Under the pieces are notes generated by a model. That model was not told where the DNA came from, searched no databases, and was given only the letters and a program-made list of their open reading frames with translations. A program made the translations under genes and the position numbers. Of a stretch of DNA of 19,039 bases, positions 7,464 to 18,042 are shown in pieces. The stretch's first letter is position 1. The number at the start of each line of letters is the position of its first letter. Origin of the DNA: Chitinispirillaceae bacterium (GTDB lineage: Bacteria > Fibrobacterota > Chitinivibrionia > Chitinivibrionales > Chitinispirillaceae); NCBI GenBank assembly GCA_016926315.1, contig JAFGOU010000219.1, forward strand, positions 1-19,039, in the 5' to 3' direction.

Positions 7464-9823
7464 GGAAACACCATTATTTTTCTCAGGGTGGATTGTGTCG
7501 TGTTGCGGCGCGTGATAAGCGCCGTGTAAAAACCCGGGACAACGTTCCTGCCGTGGTTGTTGGCGAGGCGCCACCGGTAGCCCCCCGCATATTTCTGAAA
7601 CGCGAGTGAACCGGTGCCTGTGGCGCAGACCAGCGTGCCGTCGCCGCCGTAGATGCGGATGCCGGTTATATCGCGCGCCTGAAATTCTACATATTTATTC
7701 GCCGACAAGCGGCCGAGGTTTGAAATGGCAAGTGCTGCGGTCGTATCAGGCGATGATGGCAGGGAGGCGAACACGCCGTAGATTCTCGATTGAACATTTT
7801 CCGTTGAGCATACGAAGGCCCCGGCAGTCACGGTCAGTTGGGACCGCTGTTGCTCCCAGAGCGCGGAGGAGGTGTTCCATGCGTAAGCGGCTATCGAATC
7901 GTCGCGTATGAGCCAACTGTTTTTCAGCGAATCAATGCGCCGGGACAGGACCGAAATCGTGCCGGAAAGCGATGCGCCGCTGCCCCAGAACGCGGGATAG
8001 CTCACGCTCCAGAGCGACGAGAGCCGCAGGAGCGTGGAAGGGATGGCCGGCGGCGGCTCAGCGATCGACCGCACTTCAAGCGAACAGCGGAGGTCTTCCG
8101 TTGTCGAAAGGGTGATGGACAAAGAACTGCCGCCGTCAGGCGCATCGCTCGATACGGTCGCGGTTTTTCCGGCCGGATACGTGACCGGGCAGGGAAGAAG
8201 CGAAAGCGTTGCCGAGCGCGTCTGGGAAGGGTGGCCGTTCGTGACCAGGACGAGGAGTTCGCGCCACGATCTCCACCTGTCAATACGGCACCAGCCGCGG
8301 TTGGTCTGGTCAATGGGAATGGGCACCATCGAGTCGGGCCGGCTTGGCGAGGTAAGAATGCAGGAAACGGCCCAGGAGGGCGGCGGCAGGGCACTGCCGG
8401 TTCCCGCAGCGCCTTCGAAACCGGCATGGAGCGTGTCGCCGTCAAGTGAATCAACGGTAAAGGCCATGGTCTGCATCGCATAGGGCCCCACGGTTTTCGA
8501 CACGCTGCGCGATGCGGGAAGCGTGTCGGCCGGATAGCTCCATTGACTGAAAAGAGACGCGTCGGCAAGGAACCGGGCCGTGTCCGCGCGCACTCCCGTA
8601 TAGTAACTGCCGGTATGGAACCGGTTGAGCATCAGGGTCCAGGGCATGCCCGATGTAAGCGCCGCCGCGCGCAGGTTTTCGTCAAAGGGGGTGACCGCGG
8701 CATAGTTGGTGACCATCATCTGTTTGAACAAGCCGATTCCGGGCGGCTGTGATAATTTTTCGTACAGGTATTTGGTCAAAAGAGAGTTCGAGTACGCGCG
8801 CAGGCCGCCCGATGCGTCGAAAAACGACATGCGGGGATCGGAGAAAAAGGCCGTCGCGTACTGCAGATAGTCATTAACATAGTCGAACGCTATCTCCTCC
8901 ATGAGTACCGCGGTCCCCTCGATAAAGCCGAGGGGAAAATCGTCAAGATCGTCGCCGAACAGGGTGTTCCATGTCATGGCATACTGGACCGCATGGAACA
9001 ACTCGTGCGCGCAGGTGACCCGAATGCCGTCCTGGGGGCGTTTGTCGTACCCAAAGCTTTCCCATAGGTCTCCGTTCCAGTGGTTGCGGAGCTGAAAAAT
9101 ACTGGCATATCCCTTGGATGCATCGATTCCCCGTCCCACGGCAAAGGTATAGCCGTAGTCCCGCGCGCCCAGAAGCGTGACCACCACCTTGTACCGGTCC
9201 GAGGGGTGACCCGGAGGTTTGTACGGGATCGGCGGGTTTAATCCGGATCTTTCGACGTGGAGCGACCAGGAGCTGTCGCACGCCCAGGCCACCTCGTCGA
9301 TGTAATCGGGTATGCCGTTCGAACCGCTGGTCCTGGTGCGCCACCCCTGTCCATTACCGTAGCCTATGGTATCGGTCGTATCGACCCCTTCAGACGGATC
9401 AGTGGTGGTGTAGTAGAGTTCAAAATGGCCGCCGGGCGAAATATGCATGACATACTTGTCAGGGATGTCCACCGCCTGTGCGTAGAGCGCCTTGAACGAG
9501 GGTGAGAGACGGTTCCAGAGCCGCGGGATCATGAGCAGGTCGGACTCCCGTATGGACCCGGTTGCGCGCGATGGCGCGGAAATCCCCTCTTCTCGCGCGC
9601 GGGCCTCAAAAAACGGCCGTGTACGGGATTCAAACTCCCGCACGTATCCGGCGGTGACCGCGGTTCGTTTCGTTTGCAAAGGAATCCCGTCGGAACCGGG
9701 AATCACTTTGGCGGCGGAATCCTGCGGCAGGAGCGTCGCCAGGGCGATCCCCAGGGCGCAGGGAACGGAAAGGCGTCGTGAGATCGCGAAAAGAACCACA
9801 GGTCGCTTCCGGAACAGGTCCAT
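7460..9823 (-). CDS. Secreted MXAN_6640-type putative metalloprotease with C-terminal sorting-like domain
   Basis: A 787-residue exported protein. The signal peptide (about residues 1-38) ends DSAAK. The catalytic region contains AHELFHAVQYAM, giving HELFH at 273-277, and FIEGTAVLMEE with Glu302, the gluzincin-like HExxH plus downstream Glu arrangement of the MXAN_6640 family. YIDEVAWACDSSW lies before it, also typical. Residues 420-700 are beta-rich and lack recognisable motifs. The last 85 residues resemble FlgD-like or type IX sorting domains (IRIYGGDGTLV, a Trp, NNHGRNVVPGFYTALI, a final RKIMVFP strand), implying outer-membrane export or surface attachment if the organism has such a system; none is in this window. 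The start at 9823 is chosen for the signal peptide and promoter; no clear Shine-Dalgarno precedes it. It overlaps the lipoprotein gene by 4 bp. Confidence 0.85.
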   Translation of the reverse strand: MDLFRKRPVVLFAISRRLSVPCALGIALATLLPQDSAAKVIPGSDGIPLQTKRTAVTAGYVREFESRTRPFFEARAREEGISAPSRATGSIRESDLLMIPRLWNRLSPSFKALYAQAVDIPDKYVMHISPGGHFELYYTTTDPSEGVDTTDTIGYGNGQGWRTRTSGSNGIPDYIDEVAWACDSSWSLHVERSGLNPPIPYKPPGHPSDRYKVVVTLLGARDYGYTFAVGRGIDASKGYASIFQLRNHWNGDLWESFGYDKRPQDGIRVTCAHELFHAVQYAMTWNTLFGDDLDDFPLGFIEGTAVLMEEIAFDYVNDYLQYATAFFSDPRMSFFDASGGLRAYSNSLLTKYLYEKLSQPPGIGLFKQMMVTNYAAVTPFDENLRAAALTSGMPWTLMLNRFHTGSYYTGVRADTARFLADASLFSQWSYPADTLPASRSVSKTVGPYAMQTMAFTVDSLDGDTLHAGFEGAAGTGSALPPPSWAVSCILTSPSRPDSMVPIPIDQTNRGWCRIDRWRSWRELLVLVTNGHPSQTRSATLSLLPCPVTYPAGKTATVSSDAPDGGSSLSITLSTTEDLRCSLEVRSIAEPPPAIPSTLLRLSSLWSVSYPAFWGSGASLSGTISVLSRRIDSLKNSWLIRDDSIAAYAWNTSSALWEQQRSQLTVTAGAFVCSTENVQSRIYGVFASLPSSPDTTAALAISNLGRLSANKYVEFQARDITGIRIYGGDGTLVCATGTGSLAFQKYAGGYRWRLANNHGRNVVPGFYTALITRRNTTQSTLRKIMVFP

Positions 9824-9880
9824 TGAAACAGGCGATAAATGCGTTGCGGTGCACGCGGGTACAACGCACGTTCGGTTAAA

Positions 9881-9909
9881 GATATACAATATACAATGCA
9901 ATCGCGCAA
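9881..9909 (-). promoter_or_regulatory. Promoter of the metalloprotease gene
   Basis: On the minus strand: TTGCGC (9909-9904), a 17-bp spacer, then TATATC (9886-9881). This predicts a start near 9874 and a leader of about 50 nt before the ATG at 9823. Confidence 0.45.
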
Positions 9910-9937
9910 CAGCTTTGATGTTCCACGATCTTGCGTA

Positions 9938-9966
9938 TTGATGCTCTCAGAAACCATTTTTAGCAT
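9938..9966 (+). promoter_or_regulatory. Promoter of the YchF-like gene
   Basis: TTGATG (9938-9943), a 17-bp spacer and TAGCAT (9961-9966), followed by AAAGGA 9-14 bp before the ATG at 10000. It is back-to-back with the protease promoter in the 176-bp divergent gap. Confidence 0.4.
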
Positions 9967-9999
9967 TTTTTTAAACGGCAATGACAAAGGAAAAGAGAA

Positions 10000-10689
10000 A
10001 TGAAAATAGGGTATCATGGGGTCGCTGTTCCGGAGGGCAAGGTCAAATACGGCGATCCGCGCATGAGACTTCTAGTGGAAAAATGCAAGCCGAAAAAAAC
10101 GTCGCCGCACTATGTGGAGTTCATCAAAGACGAGTATGTCCAGTGCGATGTAATACTCATCGCCAAGGAGCTGATCCTCGACCTCCTGATCCATGACATG
10201 GAGAAAACGGAGGGCCGGTTTGAACGGTCGCACGATCCGGAAGAGAAGACGCTGCTGCGGAAATGCCTGCATGCGCTGGAAGCGGAACAGCCGCTGTGCG
10301 ATTGCGCCTGGTCGGATGGAGAGCGCGCGATGCTCGCGCCCATGAACATGCTGAGCGTCAAGCCCGTGATCATGGACCATGGCGGGAACAGTGTCGACCA
10401 CATGATCGAGGCGTGCCTTGAAAAGGCGGCTATCGTATTCTTCTATACCGCGGGACCCAAAGAGGTTCATGCATGGCCGGTCGCAAAGGACGCCGATATC
10501 GTGACCTGCGCCGGGAAGATCCATACCGACCTCGCCCGCGGATTCATCAAGGGGGACGTGGCGCGCTTCGACGATTTCATGAGCTGCCACAACTGGAACG
10601 ACTGCCAGAAAAAGGGGCTGGTCAAGGTGGTGGAACGCGATTACGCCATCCGGCCGGGCGACGTGATCGAAATACGGTTCGCCGTTTGA
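10000..10689 (+). CDS. YchF/Obg-family protein lacking the GTPase core (TGS-like C-terminus)
   Basis: A 229-residue protein, against about 363 for YchF (OLA1 family). Aligned by eye, the pieces are collinear with YchF. DPRMRLLVEKCKPKK (19-33) corresponds to the conserved DPRL...KP segment, and VEFI follows. CDVILIAKELILDLL matches the start of the coiled-coil helical domain. MLSVKPVI matches the TLKP strand. Residues 147-229 match the C-terminal TGS/DUF933 domain: FFYTAGPKEVHAW, AGKIHTDLARGFIK, the DDF segment and a GDVIEIRF end. Missing are the P-loop (G1), the DIAG/G3 and switch regions and the NxxE G4 motif, so nucleotide hydrolysis is not expected. Ribosome or RNA association through the helical and TGS parts is inferred. 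No frameshift scars are visible and the promoter and Shine-Dalgarno are intact, so it looks like a stable short paralog rather than decay. Confidence 0.85.
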   Translation: MKIGYHGVAVPEGKVKYGDPRMRLLVEKCKPKKTSPHYVEFIKDEYVQCDVILIAKELILDLLIHDMEKTEGRFERSHDPEEKTLLRKCLHALEAEQPLCDCAWSDGERAMLAPMNMLSVKPVIMDHGGNSVDHMIEACLEKAAIVFFYTAGPKEVHAWPVAKDADIVTCAGKIHTDLARGFIKGDVARFDDFMSCHNWNDCQKKGLVKVVERDYAIRPGDVIEIRFAV

Positions 10690-10716
10690 CGGAACGCCTT
10701 GCACATTAAAAGCAGT

Positions 10717-10757
10717 AAAAAAAAGAGACAGATGTTGGTGGTGTGTCATCTGTCTCT
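10717..10757 (-). terminator. Intrinsic terminator, minus strand
   Basis: A perfect 11-bp stem (AGAGACAGATG at 10724-10734 with CATCTGTCTCT at 10747-10757) and a 12-nt loop. On the minus strand it is followed directly by a run of eight T (10724-10717). On the plus strand there is no T run, so it is not a standard terminator for the YchF-like gene that ends at 10689. Confidence 0.75.
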
Positions 10758-10862
10758 CGAAGATAATCTGAAGGTCCCACGCACTCCGCCGCCGCTTGTA
10801 TCTTTTGGGGAAGCTCAAGCTGACTGGCCGCACACAAGGGAGGTGCTGTAGAGCAATCGGGG
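10717..10862 (-). ncRNA. Candidate small RNA on the minus strand
   Basis: A 239-bp gap between two plus-strand genes contains a strong intrinsic terminator pointing the other way (10757 to 10717) with no minus-strand gene feeding it. Upstream on the minus strand is a possible promoter: TTGAAA (10898-10893) and an AT-rich -10 (TAATAA/AATAAT, 10874-10868) at 18-19 bp spacing. The implied RNA is about 145 nt. Internally, GCAC-TCC at 10781-10787 pairs with 10839-10846 (one bulge), and 10795-10799 pairs with 10834-10838, giving a closed stem around a 34-nt loop. It matches no RNA family I can recognise. A leader RNA of the next plus-strand gene is an alternative reading of the stem. Confidence 0.4.
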
Positions 10863-10928
10863 TCTTCATTATTAGTTATCGGAATTGCCGAATTTCAACT
10901 TTAGTTTTTTTTTAAGGAATGAAAACGA

Positions 10929-11207
10929 ATGAAATGCCGGCCTGGATGTGCTGCCTGCTGCATCGCCCCCTCAATTTCCTCACCCATACCCGGAATGTCC
11001 CTGGGCAAGCCTGCGGGCGTGCCGTGCGTACAGCTTACCCCGGACCTGAAATGCGCGCTTTTCGGCACAAAGGAGCGGCCGGCAGTGTGCGTCCGTTTTG
11101 AACCTTCGCCGGAGATGTGCGGGGCCACCAGAGAAGATGCCTTTCGGTATCTTTCGCAACTTGAAAGACTTACTGCGCCGCAACATCCAAGGGAGGCACG
11201 CATATGA
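10929..11207 (+). CDS. YkgJ-family cysteine-cluster protein
   Basis: A 92-residue protein of the YkgJ/UPF0153 (CxxCxxCC) type. The N-terminus carries CRPGCAACC (Cys3, Cys7, Cys10, Cys11). Further cysteines follow at PCVQL, LKCALFG, AVCVRF and MCGATR, the usual eight-cysteine layout of a putative zinc- or iron-sulfur-binding protein. The biochemical role of the family is unknown. It begins at the ATG at 10929, with AAGGAA ending 10 nt upstream; a nearby ATG at 10919 is out of frame and gives no cysteine motif. Its TGA overlaps the start of the next gene (ATGA), so the two are translationally coupled. Confidence 0.85.
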   Translation: MKCRPGCAACCIAPSISSPIPGMSLGKPAGVPCVQLTPDLKCALFGTKERPAVCVRFEPSPEMCGATREDAFRYLSQLERLTAPQHPREARI

Positions 11208-11687: not shown

Positions 11688-11709
11688 GATTTGTTTTGTA
11701 TTACAAATC
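11688..11709. repeat. Short inverted repeat upstream of the nucleotidyltransferase gene
   Basis: GATTTGT (11688-11694) and ACAAATC (11703-11709) form a perfect 7-bp dyad with an 8-nt AT-rich spacer, 40 bp before the next ATG. It is a possible operator or small hairpin; function is inferred from position only. Confidence 0.25.
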
Positions 11710-11749
11710 GCAGGGATGGTTATGCTATGGACTATCTAATGGAGCAGCC

Positions 11750-12298
11750 ATGACCCCCAGGCATTTTTACGACTGGCAGACAAACGGCGGCGTCAATGAT
11801 GTGATGCGCATGGTGGAGTGCCTTGAACGCGCCGGCATACCCTGGTGTGCCATCGGTGGCATTGCGGTCAACCACTGGGCGCAGGAACCGATGGTGACAA
11901 GGGACGTCGATATCGTGATGGCAACAGGTTCCCTGGAAAAAGCTGTTTCGCTTCTGGAAAAAAACGGATTCACGGCGGAGCGCTTCAAAAGGTCGATCAA
12001 CCTTAAAGGCGGTGCAGAGATCAGTATCCAGATCAGAACCGAAGAGTTTTATAAAGATTTCCCTGCCCGCTCCGTCCCGGCCGACATTCACGGCATCCTC
12101 ATGAGGGTGGCATCCCTTGAAGACACCCTAGAAGGAAAAATCCGGGCGTGGAACGATGAGCAGCGGCGCCAAAGCAAGAGAATAAAAGACCTTGCCGACA
12201 TTTCCCGGCTGGTGGAGGCCCATCCTGATGTCTGGGACCGATTGACGAGCGAGCTCAAAAAAACGGTTCAGAAGCCTGAGCAGGGAAATGATGCGTAG
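11750..12298 (+). CDS. AbiEii-like nucleotidyltransferase-fold protein
   Basis: A 182-residue protein with a nucleotidyltransferase signature: CAIGGIAV (Gly36-Gly37), then TRDVDIVM with Asp52 and Asp54, the GG...DxD layout of the AbiEii/MenT-like polymerase-beta superfamily. The C-terminal part (IRAWNDEQRRQSKRIKDLADI) is the helical segment typical of such proteins, with the conserved Lys/Asp pattern. AbiEii-type toxins normally sit behind an AbiEi antitoxin; none is present, so this may be a solitary or non-toxin member. The start was set at the ATG 11750, which has TGGAG upstream; the upstream in-frame ATG at 11696 lies inside the inverted repeat. Substrate unknown. Confidence 0.8.
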   Translation: MTPRHFYDWQTNGGVNDVMRMVECLERAGIPWCAIGGIAVNHWAQEPMVTRDVDIVMATGSLEKAVSLLEKNGFTAERFKRSINLKGGAEISIQIRTEEFYKDFPARSVPADIHGILMRVASLEDTLEGKIRAWNDEQRRQSKRIKDLADISRLVEAHPDVWDRLTSELKKTVQKPEQGNDA

Positions 12299-17361: not shown

Positions 17362-17411
17362 GGAACTAAGGTCAAATAAGCCAGATGCAGAGGGTACAAT
17401 ACGAAGATACT

Positions 17412-17711
17412 ATGGATACGCGTGAAGAAATTCTTGAATTTCTAAAGGCCAACCGTGAGTTTCTGAAAGAGCAGTTTCATGTCATAAAAATCGGCCTGTT
17501 TGGCTCGTTTGCGCGAAGCGAGCAGACGCCGCATAGTGATATCGATCTCATCATTGAGATGGATGCCGATGTAAATGAGGTCTTCCAATTAAAAAACAGA
17601 ATGCGGGAATTTTTCTCTGACCGCTGCAAACGTACCGTTGATCTGGCAAGGGAAAAATACCTGCGACCTTACGCCCGCAAGCAGATTCTCAAGGAAGCGA
17701 TATTTGTCTAA
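17412..17711 (+). CDS. mntA: MntA-type minimal nucleotidyltransferase antitoxin
   Basis: A 99-residue protein. GLFGSFARSEQTPHSDIDLI gives the GSX10DXD motif (Gly31-Ser32, Asp43, Asp45), and Asp77 in RTVDLARE is the third catalytic carboxylate. In characterised MntA-HepT systems this enzyme AMPylates a tyrosine of the HEPN toxin and so blocks it. The ATG at 17412 starts where family members usually do; an in-frame ATG at 17385 adds nine residues. The gene overlaps the HEPN gene by 8 bp. The DNA is AT-richer than that of the neighbours, consistent with recent acquisition. The family call is strong; antitoxin activity is inferred from the pairing. Confidence 0.9.
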   Translation: MDTREEILEFLKANREFLKEQFHVIKIGLFGSFARSEQTPHSDIDLIIEMDADVNEVFQLKNRMREFFSDRCKRTVDLAREKYLRPYARKQILKEAIFV

Positions 17712-18042
17712 TACGAAAGATATTCTTTGCCTAAAAGGCATTCTTGATTCAGCTGAAAAAATAATCAGTTTTTCCTCATCCTTTTCAACTCCAGATGAAC
17801 TGTTTGCAGACCAGAAGAGTTTTGACGCTGTATGTATGAATTTCATTGTTATTGGAGAAATGTCTGACCGGATTACTGACGAATTCAAGCGTACGCACAC
17901 GGAGATCAACTGGAAAGAAATTAAGGGGCTACGGAATATTATCGCACATGACTACTTTGGTGTCGATGCAGAGGAACTGTGGGGCATAATCCAAGCGCAC
18001 ATTCCCGGAGTAATCGAATCAATTCGGAAAATTTTCAACTAA
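17704..18042 (+). CDS. hepT: HepT-type HEPN ribonuclease toxin
   Basis: A 112-residue all-helical protein. RNIIAHDYFGVD carries the RX4HXY motif of HepT (Arg77, His82, Tyr84): Arg and His are the RNase residues and Tyr the site AMPylated by MntA in characterised systems. FIVIGEMSDRIT is the usual central helix. The start is a TTG at 17704, chosen because AAGGAAG (17691-17697) lies 6 nt upstream and the protein then begins MSNTKDIL; the open frame reaching back to an ATG at 17638 sits deep inside the antitoxin gene. The 8-bp overlap gives coupled translation, with antitoxin first. Confidence 0.9.
   Translation: MSNTKDILCLKGILDSAEKIISFSSSFSTPDELFADQKSFDAVCMNFIVIGEMSDRITDEFKRTHTEINWKEIKGLRNIIAHDYFGVDAEELWGIIQAHIPGVIESIRKIFN

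Follow-up and report, generated by a model that had tools for sequence, protein, structure and literature searches.

Can a YchF-like protein still work after its nucleotide site has been lost? This question is raised by an open reading frame (ORF) at positions 10000-10689, starting with ATG and encoding 229 amino acids, in the window, i.e., the whole stretch of 19,039 nucleotides analyzed here (contig JAFGOU010000219.1 of assembly GCA_016926315.1, from a Chitinispirillaceae bacterium). The original prediction, made from the DNA letters alone, took its product for a functional, nucleotide-independent paralogue of YchF. We have found this short form to be a real, conserved protein across many bacterial groups, and because of this its job is probably YchF-like, with no nucleotide as the switch. 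To the fuller reading, in which a conserved YchF/OLA1 paralogue that lost its nucleotide site works without nucleotide by binding RNA or ribosomes, with a thiol input in many members, we give an even chance.

The YchF/OLA1 family itself, that of the universal ribosome-binding protein YchF, is known, and no description of a form stripped of its G domain was found among the listed titles and abstract openings of a literature search with little coverage of subscription papers. A natural protein keeping the helical and TGS domains without a nucleotide site is a direct tool for probing the role of these domains, and it suggests that part of the YchF role survives without the nucleotide cycle. The automatic name "ribosome-binding ATPase YchF", which some short forms bear, is misleading as to the ATPase.

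Retained and missing parts of the protein

The features of the gene, all on the plus strand, are as follows.

9987-9991, plus strand: Shine-Dalgarno-like AAGGA, 8 nucleotides upstream of the ATG, read from the sequence
10000-10689, plus strand: gene for the 229-residue G-domain-stripped YchF paralogue (ORF, profile matches, family search, structure comparison)
10003-10017, plus strand: strand 1 (residues 2-6), counterpart of YchF strand 1 (AlphaFold model, alignment)
10009-10041, plus strand: first junction region (residues 4-14), where P-loop, helix 1 and switch I are missing, with conserved G13-K14 (alignments)
10054-10098, plus strand: DPR...KPKK segment (residues 19-33), retained (alignment)
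10123-10143, plus strand: second junction region (residues 42-48), where DIAG/switch II and helix 2 are missing (alignments)
10165-10344, plus strand: helical domain (residues 56-115); most members keep its C89 and C100 (model, alignment)
10366-10377, plus strand: strand 123-126 after a conserved KP, counterpart of the YchF TLKP strand (model, alignment)
10375-10386, plus strand: last junction region (residues 126-129), where NxxE and the remainder of the nucleotide site have been lost (alignments)
10429-10686, plus strand: TGS/DUF933 domain (residues 144-229), including C170, which is highly conserved (PF06071, structure comparison, alignment)

The Shine-Dalgarno sequence is thus present as predicted, while the "intact promoter" announced with it was not recovered: a scan for the sigma-70 type only gave no such site on the plus strand of 9600-10950.

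Profile searches place the protein in the DUF933 family, PF06071 (the YchF C-terminal domain) matching residues 147-227 at 90.2 bits against a cut-off of 27. The YchF profile TIGR00092 is matched at 99.8 bits, with the best stretch at residues 131-229, far below the 279.2 bits set as its cut-off for a full-length, whole-protein match. The TGS profile PF02824 gave 16.3 bits, under the Pfam cut-off of 22.2; the fold nonetheless matches TGS structures. Seven of the nine matches among sequences of solved structures are YchF/OLA1 chains, and the other two (E 0.4 and 0.7) look like chance. A PHROG match lies in the C-terminal portion of a family 364 positions long.

The AlphaFold model is confident (mean predicted local distance difference test score 96.9) and superposes on YchF over its full length with 28% identity and a root-mean-square deviation of 2.5 Å, showing the helical and TGS domain folds of YchF/OLA1. 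In comparison with YchF/OLA1 (TIGR00092; PDB 1jal, 8kie, 2ohf), strands 1-5, the helical domain and the TGS/DUF933 domain are shared and all 229 residues are collinear, whereas P-loop, switch I, switch II, NxxE and the last G-domain strand are missing. The short form has, in addition, its own conserved set of cysteines and histidines and lies on the opposite side of a tree branch (see below).

The clean in-frame deletions of the original prediction are visible in a MAFFT alignment with 37 full-length YchFs as in-frame gaps at five places. Counted as YchF residues opposite each gap, median with range in parentheses, these are 27 (23-27) for P-loop, helix 1 and switch I; 15 (11-19), plus 4, for DIAG/switch II and helix 2; 22 (14-22) after strand 4; 9 (5-15) at the hairpin tip; and 50 (35-54), plus 4, from NxxE to the last G-domain strand. 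The first junction is placed differently by different alignments, at residues 12/13 in one and 4/5 in another. The P-loop pattern G-x4-GK[ST] occurs in none of 238 short forms (the window protein and 237 relatives), and the segment with the NxxE G4 motif is missing in the alignments of the window protein. Of two looser patterns, D[IVFL][AVP]G occurs at any position in 25 of the 238, and N..[DE] occurs close to strand 5 in 11. The pair G13-K14, identical in all 238, was considered as a remnant P-loop and rejected, because the model puts a strand there, not a helix. From the missing motifs we infer that the short form is independent of nucleotide; since the nucleotide segments are gone, the YchF ATP cycle should be impossible for it.

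Distribution and evolution

A protein search with the window protein yielded 949 matches with E values of at most 0.001, a total that can include full-length YchF because candidates could be as long as 1.75 times the query, and a second search with a distant short form from another genome (G043) gave 887. The best 120 matches of each were listed, making 240 different identifiers, one of them the window's own, and 221 of these 240 are 229-231 amino acids long. For the alignment of 238 rows, the window protein and 237 others of at least 222 amino acids were used, two shorter proteins and the window's own entry being excluded; lengths of 225-234 amino acids were found in 225 rows. Two subgroups are distinguished, of 229 (A) and 230 (B) amino acids.

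Source labels, which are mostly those of metagenome bins, are given for a minority of entries and may be wrong, include Chitinispirillaceae, Chitinivibrionales, Elusimicrobia, Latescibacterota, Victivallales, Fermentibacteria, Parcubacteria, Zixiibacteriota, Desulfobacterales, Nitrospiraceae, Bacteroidota, Ignavibacteria, Gemmatimonadota and Pseudomonadota, as well as one archaeal label, Hodarchaeales. Where names are given to the listed matches, they are mostly "DUF933 domain-containing protein", "hypothetical protein" or "ribosome-binding ATPase (YchF)". Within single phyla the distribution is as follows. In the phylum of G001, labelled a Fibrobacteres bin, the short form was found as a whole-model match of at least 276 bits in 4 of 167 genomes, the other matches listed reaching at most 88.1 bits and none of them starting before model position 82. 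For the G004 phylum (G004 being labelled an Endomicrobiia bin), 6 of 294 genomes have such a match; among the matches listed the next best has 94 bits and no others start before model position 78.

None of 42 matching plasmid records spans 80% of the query, and the two viral-contig matches are full-length YchF, not the short form. These two contigs of a viral collection (L100 and L101) may represent a phage gene or host contamination.

Full-length ychF was found alongside the short form in eight of the ten related genomes (four of the G001 phylum and six of the G004 phylum). In six genomes it exceeds the TIGR00092 cut-off, and in G004 and G205 it shows up as two match pieces that lie in a single open frame (357 and 360 amino acids, respectively) with the P-loop present. 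No full-length ychF was found in G172 and G188; these assemblies may be incomplete, because 31 of the 294 genomes of their phylum gave no match at all at E 1e-5.

In a tree of the 229 shared columns, a single branch with a support of 100 in the Shimodaira-Hasegawa-like approximate likelihood ratio test splits 47 short forms (the window protein, 37 listed proteins and nine loci) from 37 full-length YchFs, and the short forms are not interspersed among the latter. The full-length rows come from the phyla of G001 and G004, four Dependentiae or unnamed-bin loci and the two viral contigs, 37 of 49 having been kept after 12 near-alike ones were dropped. One old origin with patchy spread fits this tree, which was made by a quick method without bootstrap and is unrooted (the root is for drawing only). 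The word "deleted" in the original prediction is right as history, while a recent loss is not indicated: the loss looks old, because the same form carries source labels of many phyla.

The ratio of nonsynonymous to synonymous substitution rates (dN/dS) of the short genes, by Nei-Gojobori counts, was 0.18, 0.11, 0.11, 0.18 and 0.13 in the five of eight pairs with finite dS, the other three being saturated and dS exceeding 1 in four of the five. For the pair G001 and G002, full-length ychF gave 0.09 and the short genes 0.11. A pseudogene or an assembly deletion of ychF, for which the missing G motifs might speak, is accordingly an explanation of negligible probability: the same length recurs in over two hundred separate entries, purifying selection acts on the genes, the proteins form a separate tree group, and full-length ychF is present elsewhere in the eight genomes. 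Together with the confident fold, these results give good support to the functional, nucleotide-independent paralogue that had been proposed.

Two further kinds of full-length protein were observed. In seven genomes of the G001 phylum, each with two YchF-type matches, divergent full-length YchFs whose P-loop reads SGKTT or CGKTT (L023, L024, L026, L029, L041, L042 and L043) form one tree group. Three full-length YchF-like proteins of the G004 phylum (L062, L063 and L067) have GKK in the P-loop instead of GKS or GKT, and are possibly a second YchF kind with altered nucleotide use.

Possible function of the short form

We propose that the leftover G-domain strands would serve as a scaffold only, keeping the helical hairpin and the TGS domain placed as they are in YchF, and that the cleft between these two would be a constitutive binding site for RNA (the tRNA 3' end and/or rRNA) or ribosomes. 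This would be a basal version of the interaction that YchF makes ATP-dependently. The exact role of the helical and TGS domains of YchF and of the cleft between them is described as unknown, and the cleft as positively charged (PMC8779481). The RelA TGS domain touches the tRNA CCA end and helix 5 of 16S rRNA (PMC4974054), and a review reports that the TGS domain of rice YchF1 binds 26S RNA and, citing a university thesis, that that of E. coli YchF binds the tRNA CCA end (PMC10144078). From the retained cleft and these RNA-binding TGS domains, the likeliest role would be to bind RNA or ribosomes constitutively, with no use of ATP.

Several points weigh against this role. N-terminal to the TGS domain the protein is acidic (median isoelectric point 4.7 in 140 rows, 5.8 in the window protein), which disfavours RNA binding. 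In E. coli YchF it is N20, a residue of the ATPase domain, that cross-links to 30S proteins in vivo, and two positions in the helical domain gave no cross-links to uS5 or uS8 (PMC8138138); the N20 region falls within segments absent from the short form. No neighbour gene is conserved across the 11 loci compared. Of the suggested competition for ribosomes or RNA, the ribosome part is weakened by the loss of the mapped 30S contact. Some room for it is left by a review, according to which the data do not favour one single YchF binding site (PMC8779481), and by structure 8kie, titled YchF with the 50S subunit. Binding of RNA through the TGS/helical cleft remains plausible.

The same contact bears on a second explanation, a dominant-negative antagonist that would hold the ribosome or RNA site of YchF without ATP turnover and so limit YchF. 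The architecture of YchF minus its motor and the coexistence with full-length ychF in eight of ten genomes agree with this, but the main mapped E. coli 30S contact sits in the deleted part (PMC8138138) and no full-length ychF was found in the possibly incomplete G172 and G188 assemblies; we consider it distinctly unlikely. An adaptor, in which the ubiquitin-like TGS domain and the hairpin would bind a protein partner off the ribosome, finds parallels in the OLA1 TGS domain, reported to be needed for the BRCA1/BARD1 interaction, and in TGS residues of rice YchF1 needed for GAP1 binding (PMC10144078). No partner gene is linked to the short gene across the loci read, and such an adaptor appears unlikely.

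Comparison with other families gives the following picture. The TGS domains of RelA/SpoT and ThrRS have the fold in common with the short form over about 64-68 aligned residues at 14-23% identity, and no further common domain was seen. Rbg1/DRG proteins (4a9a) differ in being GTPases with other extra domains. Eukaryotic pseudoGTPases such as septins and p190RhoGAP are alike in that a GTPase-like fold outlasts its activity; they belong to other families, whereas in the short form whole segments of the nucleotide site are gone.

Conserved cysteines and histidines

Six residues, G13, K14, D66, W159, C170 and H175, are identical in all 238 short forms. C89 (233 of 238), C100 (230), H157 (236) and H197 (230) are near-invariant, and among the full-length YchFs at most one of 37 has cysteine in each of the columns of C89 (where one does), C100 and C170. 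In E. coli YchF the residue aligned with C89 is a cysteine too, by counting C168, one of two cysteines placed for a disulphide in the thioredoxin 1-binding domain, according to a review (PMC8779481). In many members C89, C100 and C170 might take the place of the nucleotide as a redox input; this is only a suggestion, more speculative than the RNA binding.

Losses of these residues weigh against a redox input. L054 (in G004) has neither C89 nor C170, L075 (in G205) has no C89, and 23 of the 238 lack one of C89, C100, H157 and H197, none lacking two. Cysteine at the position equivalent to C140, the partner of C168 in E. coli YchF, is found in 47 of 78 A-type and none of 62 B-type proteins, the window protein having threonine there, so that a switch of the C140-C168 type is not general in short forms. 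Because of all these losses and the patchy C140 partner, a metal site or disulphide obligate for the whole family is unsupported. A thiol redox or metal sensor, in which the three cysteines and the conserved histidines would be the active part and RNA binding secondary, is favoured by the high conservation of this set and its rarity in full-length YchFs; it is opposed by L054 and L075, while the losses among the 238 are single, and we regard it as quite improbable. The most far-reaching version of the RNA-binding proposal, a widespread factor linked to translation that arose once from a universal P-loop NTPase, by loss of every segment in contact with the nucleotide, and acts as a nucleotide-free TGS/helical RNA clamp, thiol-gated in many members, seems to us rather doubtful as a whole.

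Gene neighbourhood and other features of the window

For the neighbourhood, ORFs of 11 loci were compared; in the window and in L076 this comparison lost the short gene, which overlaps a longer antisense ORF there. Shared neighbours are mostly pairwise (window and L002, L071 and L072, L075 and L076). Exceptions are one gene cluster in L073, L075 and L076, whose L073 copy lies some 6 kb from the short gene, and a DEAD-box helicase in the window, L071 and L072, about 7.4 kb from the short gene in the window.

Elsewhere in the window, adjacent genes for an MNT-type nucleotidyltransferase and a HepT-like protein (17385-18042) resemble a HepT/MNT toxin-antitoxin pair, and a nucleotidyltransferase like AbiEii/NTP_transf_5 is encoded at 11696-12298. 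Just past the short gene lies a perfect 10-base inverted repeat (10725-10756, arms 10725-10734 and 10747-10756), whose 12-base loop exceeds the limit of the promoter/terminator scan; it could be a minus-strand terminator because an A run precedes it. An antisense ORF of 265 amino acids on the minus strand (10072-10869) overlaps the short gene, as do antisense ORFs of 203 and 217 amino acids in L001 and L002, respectively, and these are probably a shadow of codon bias.
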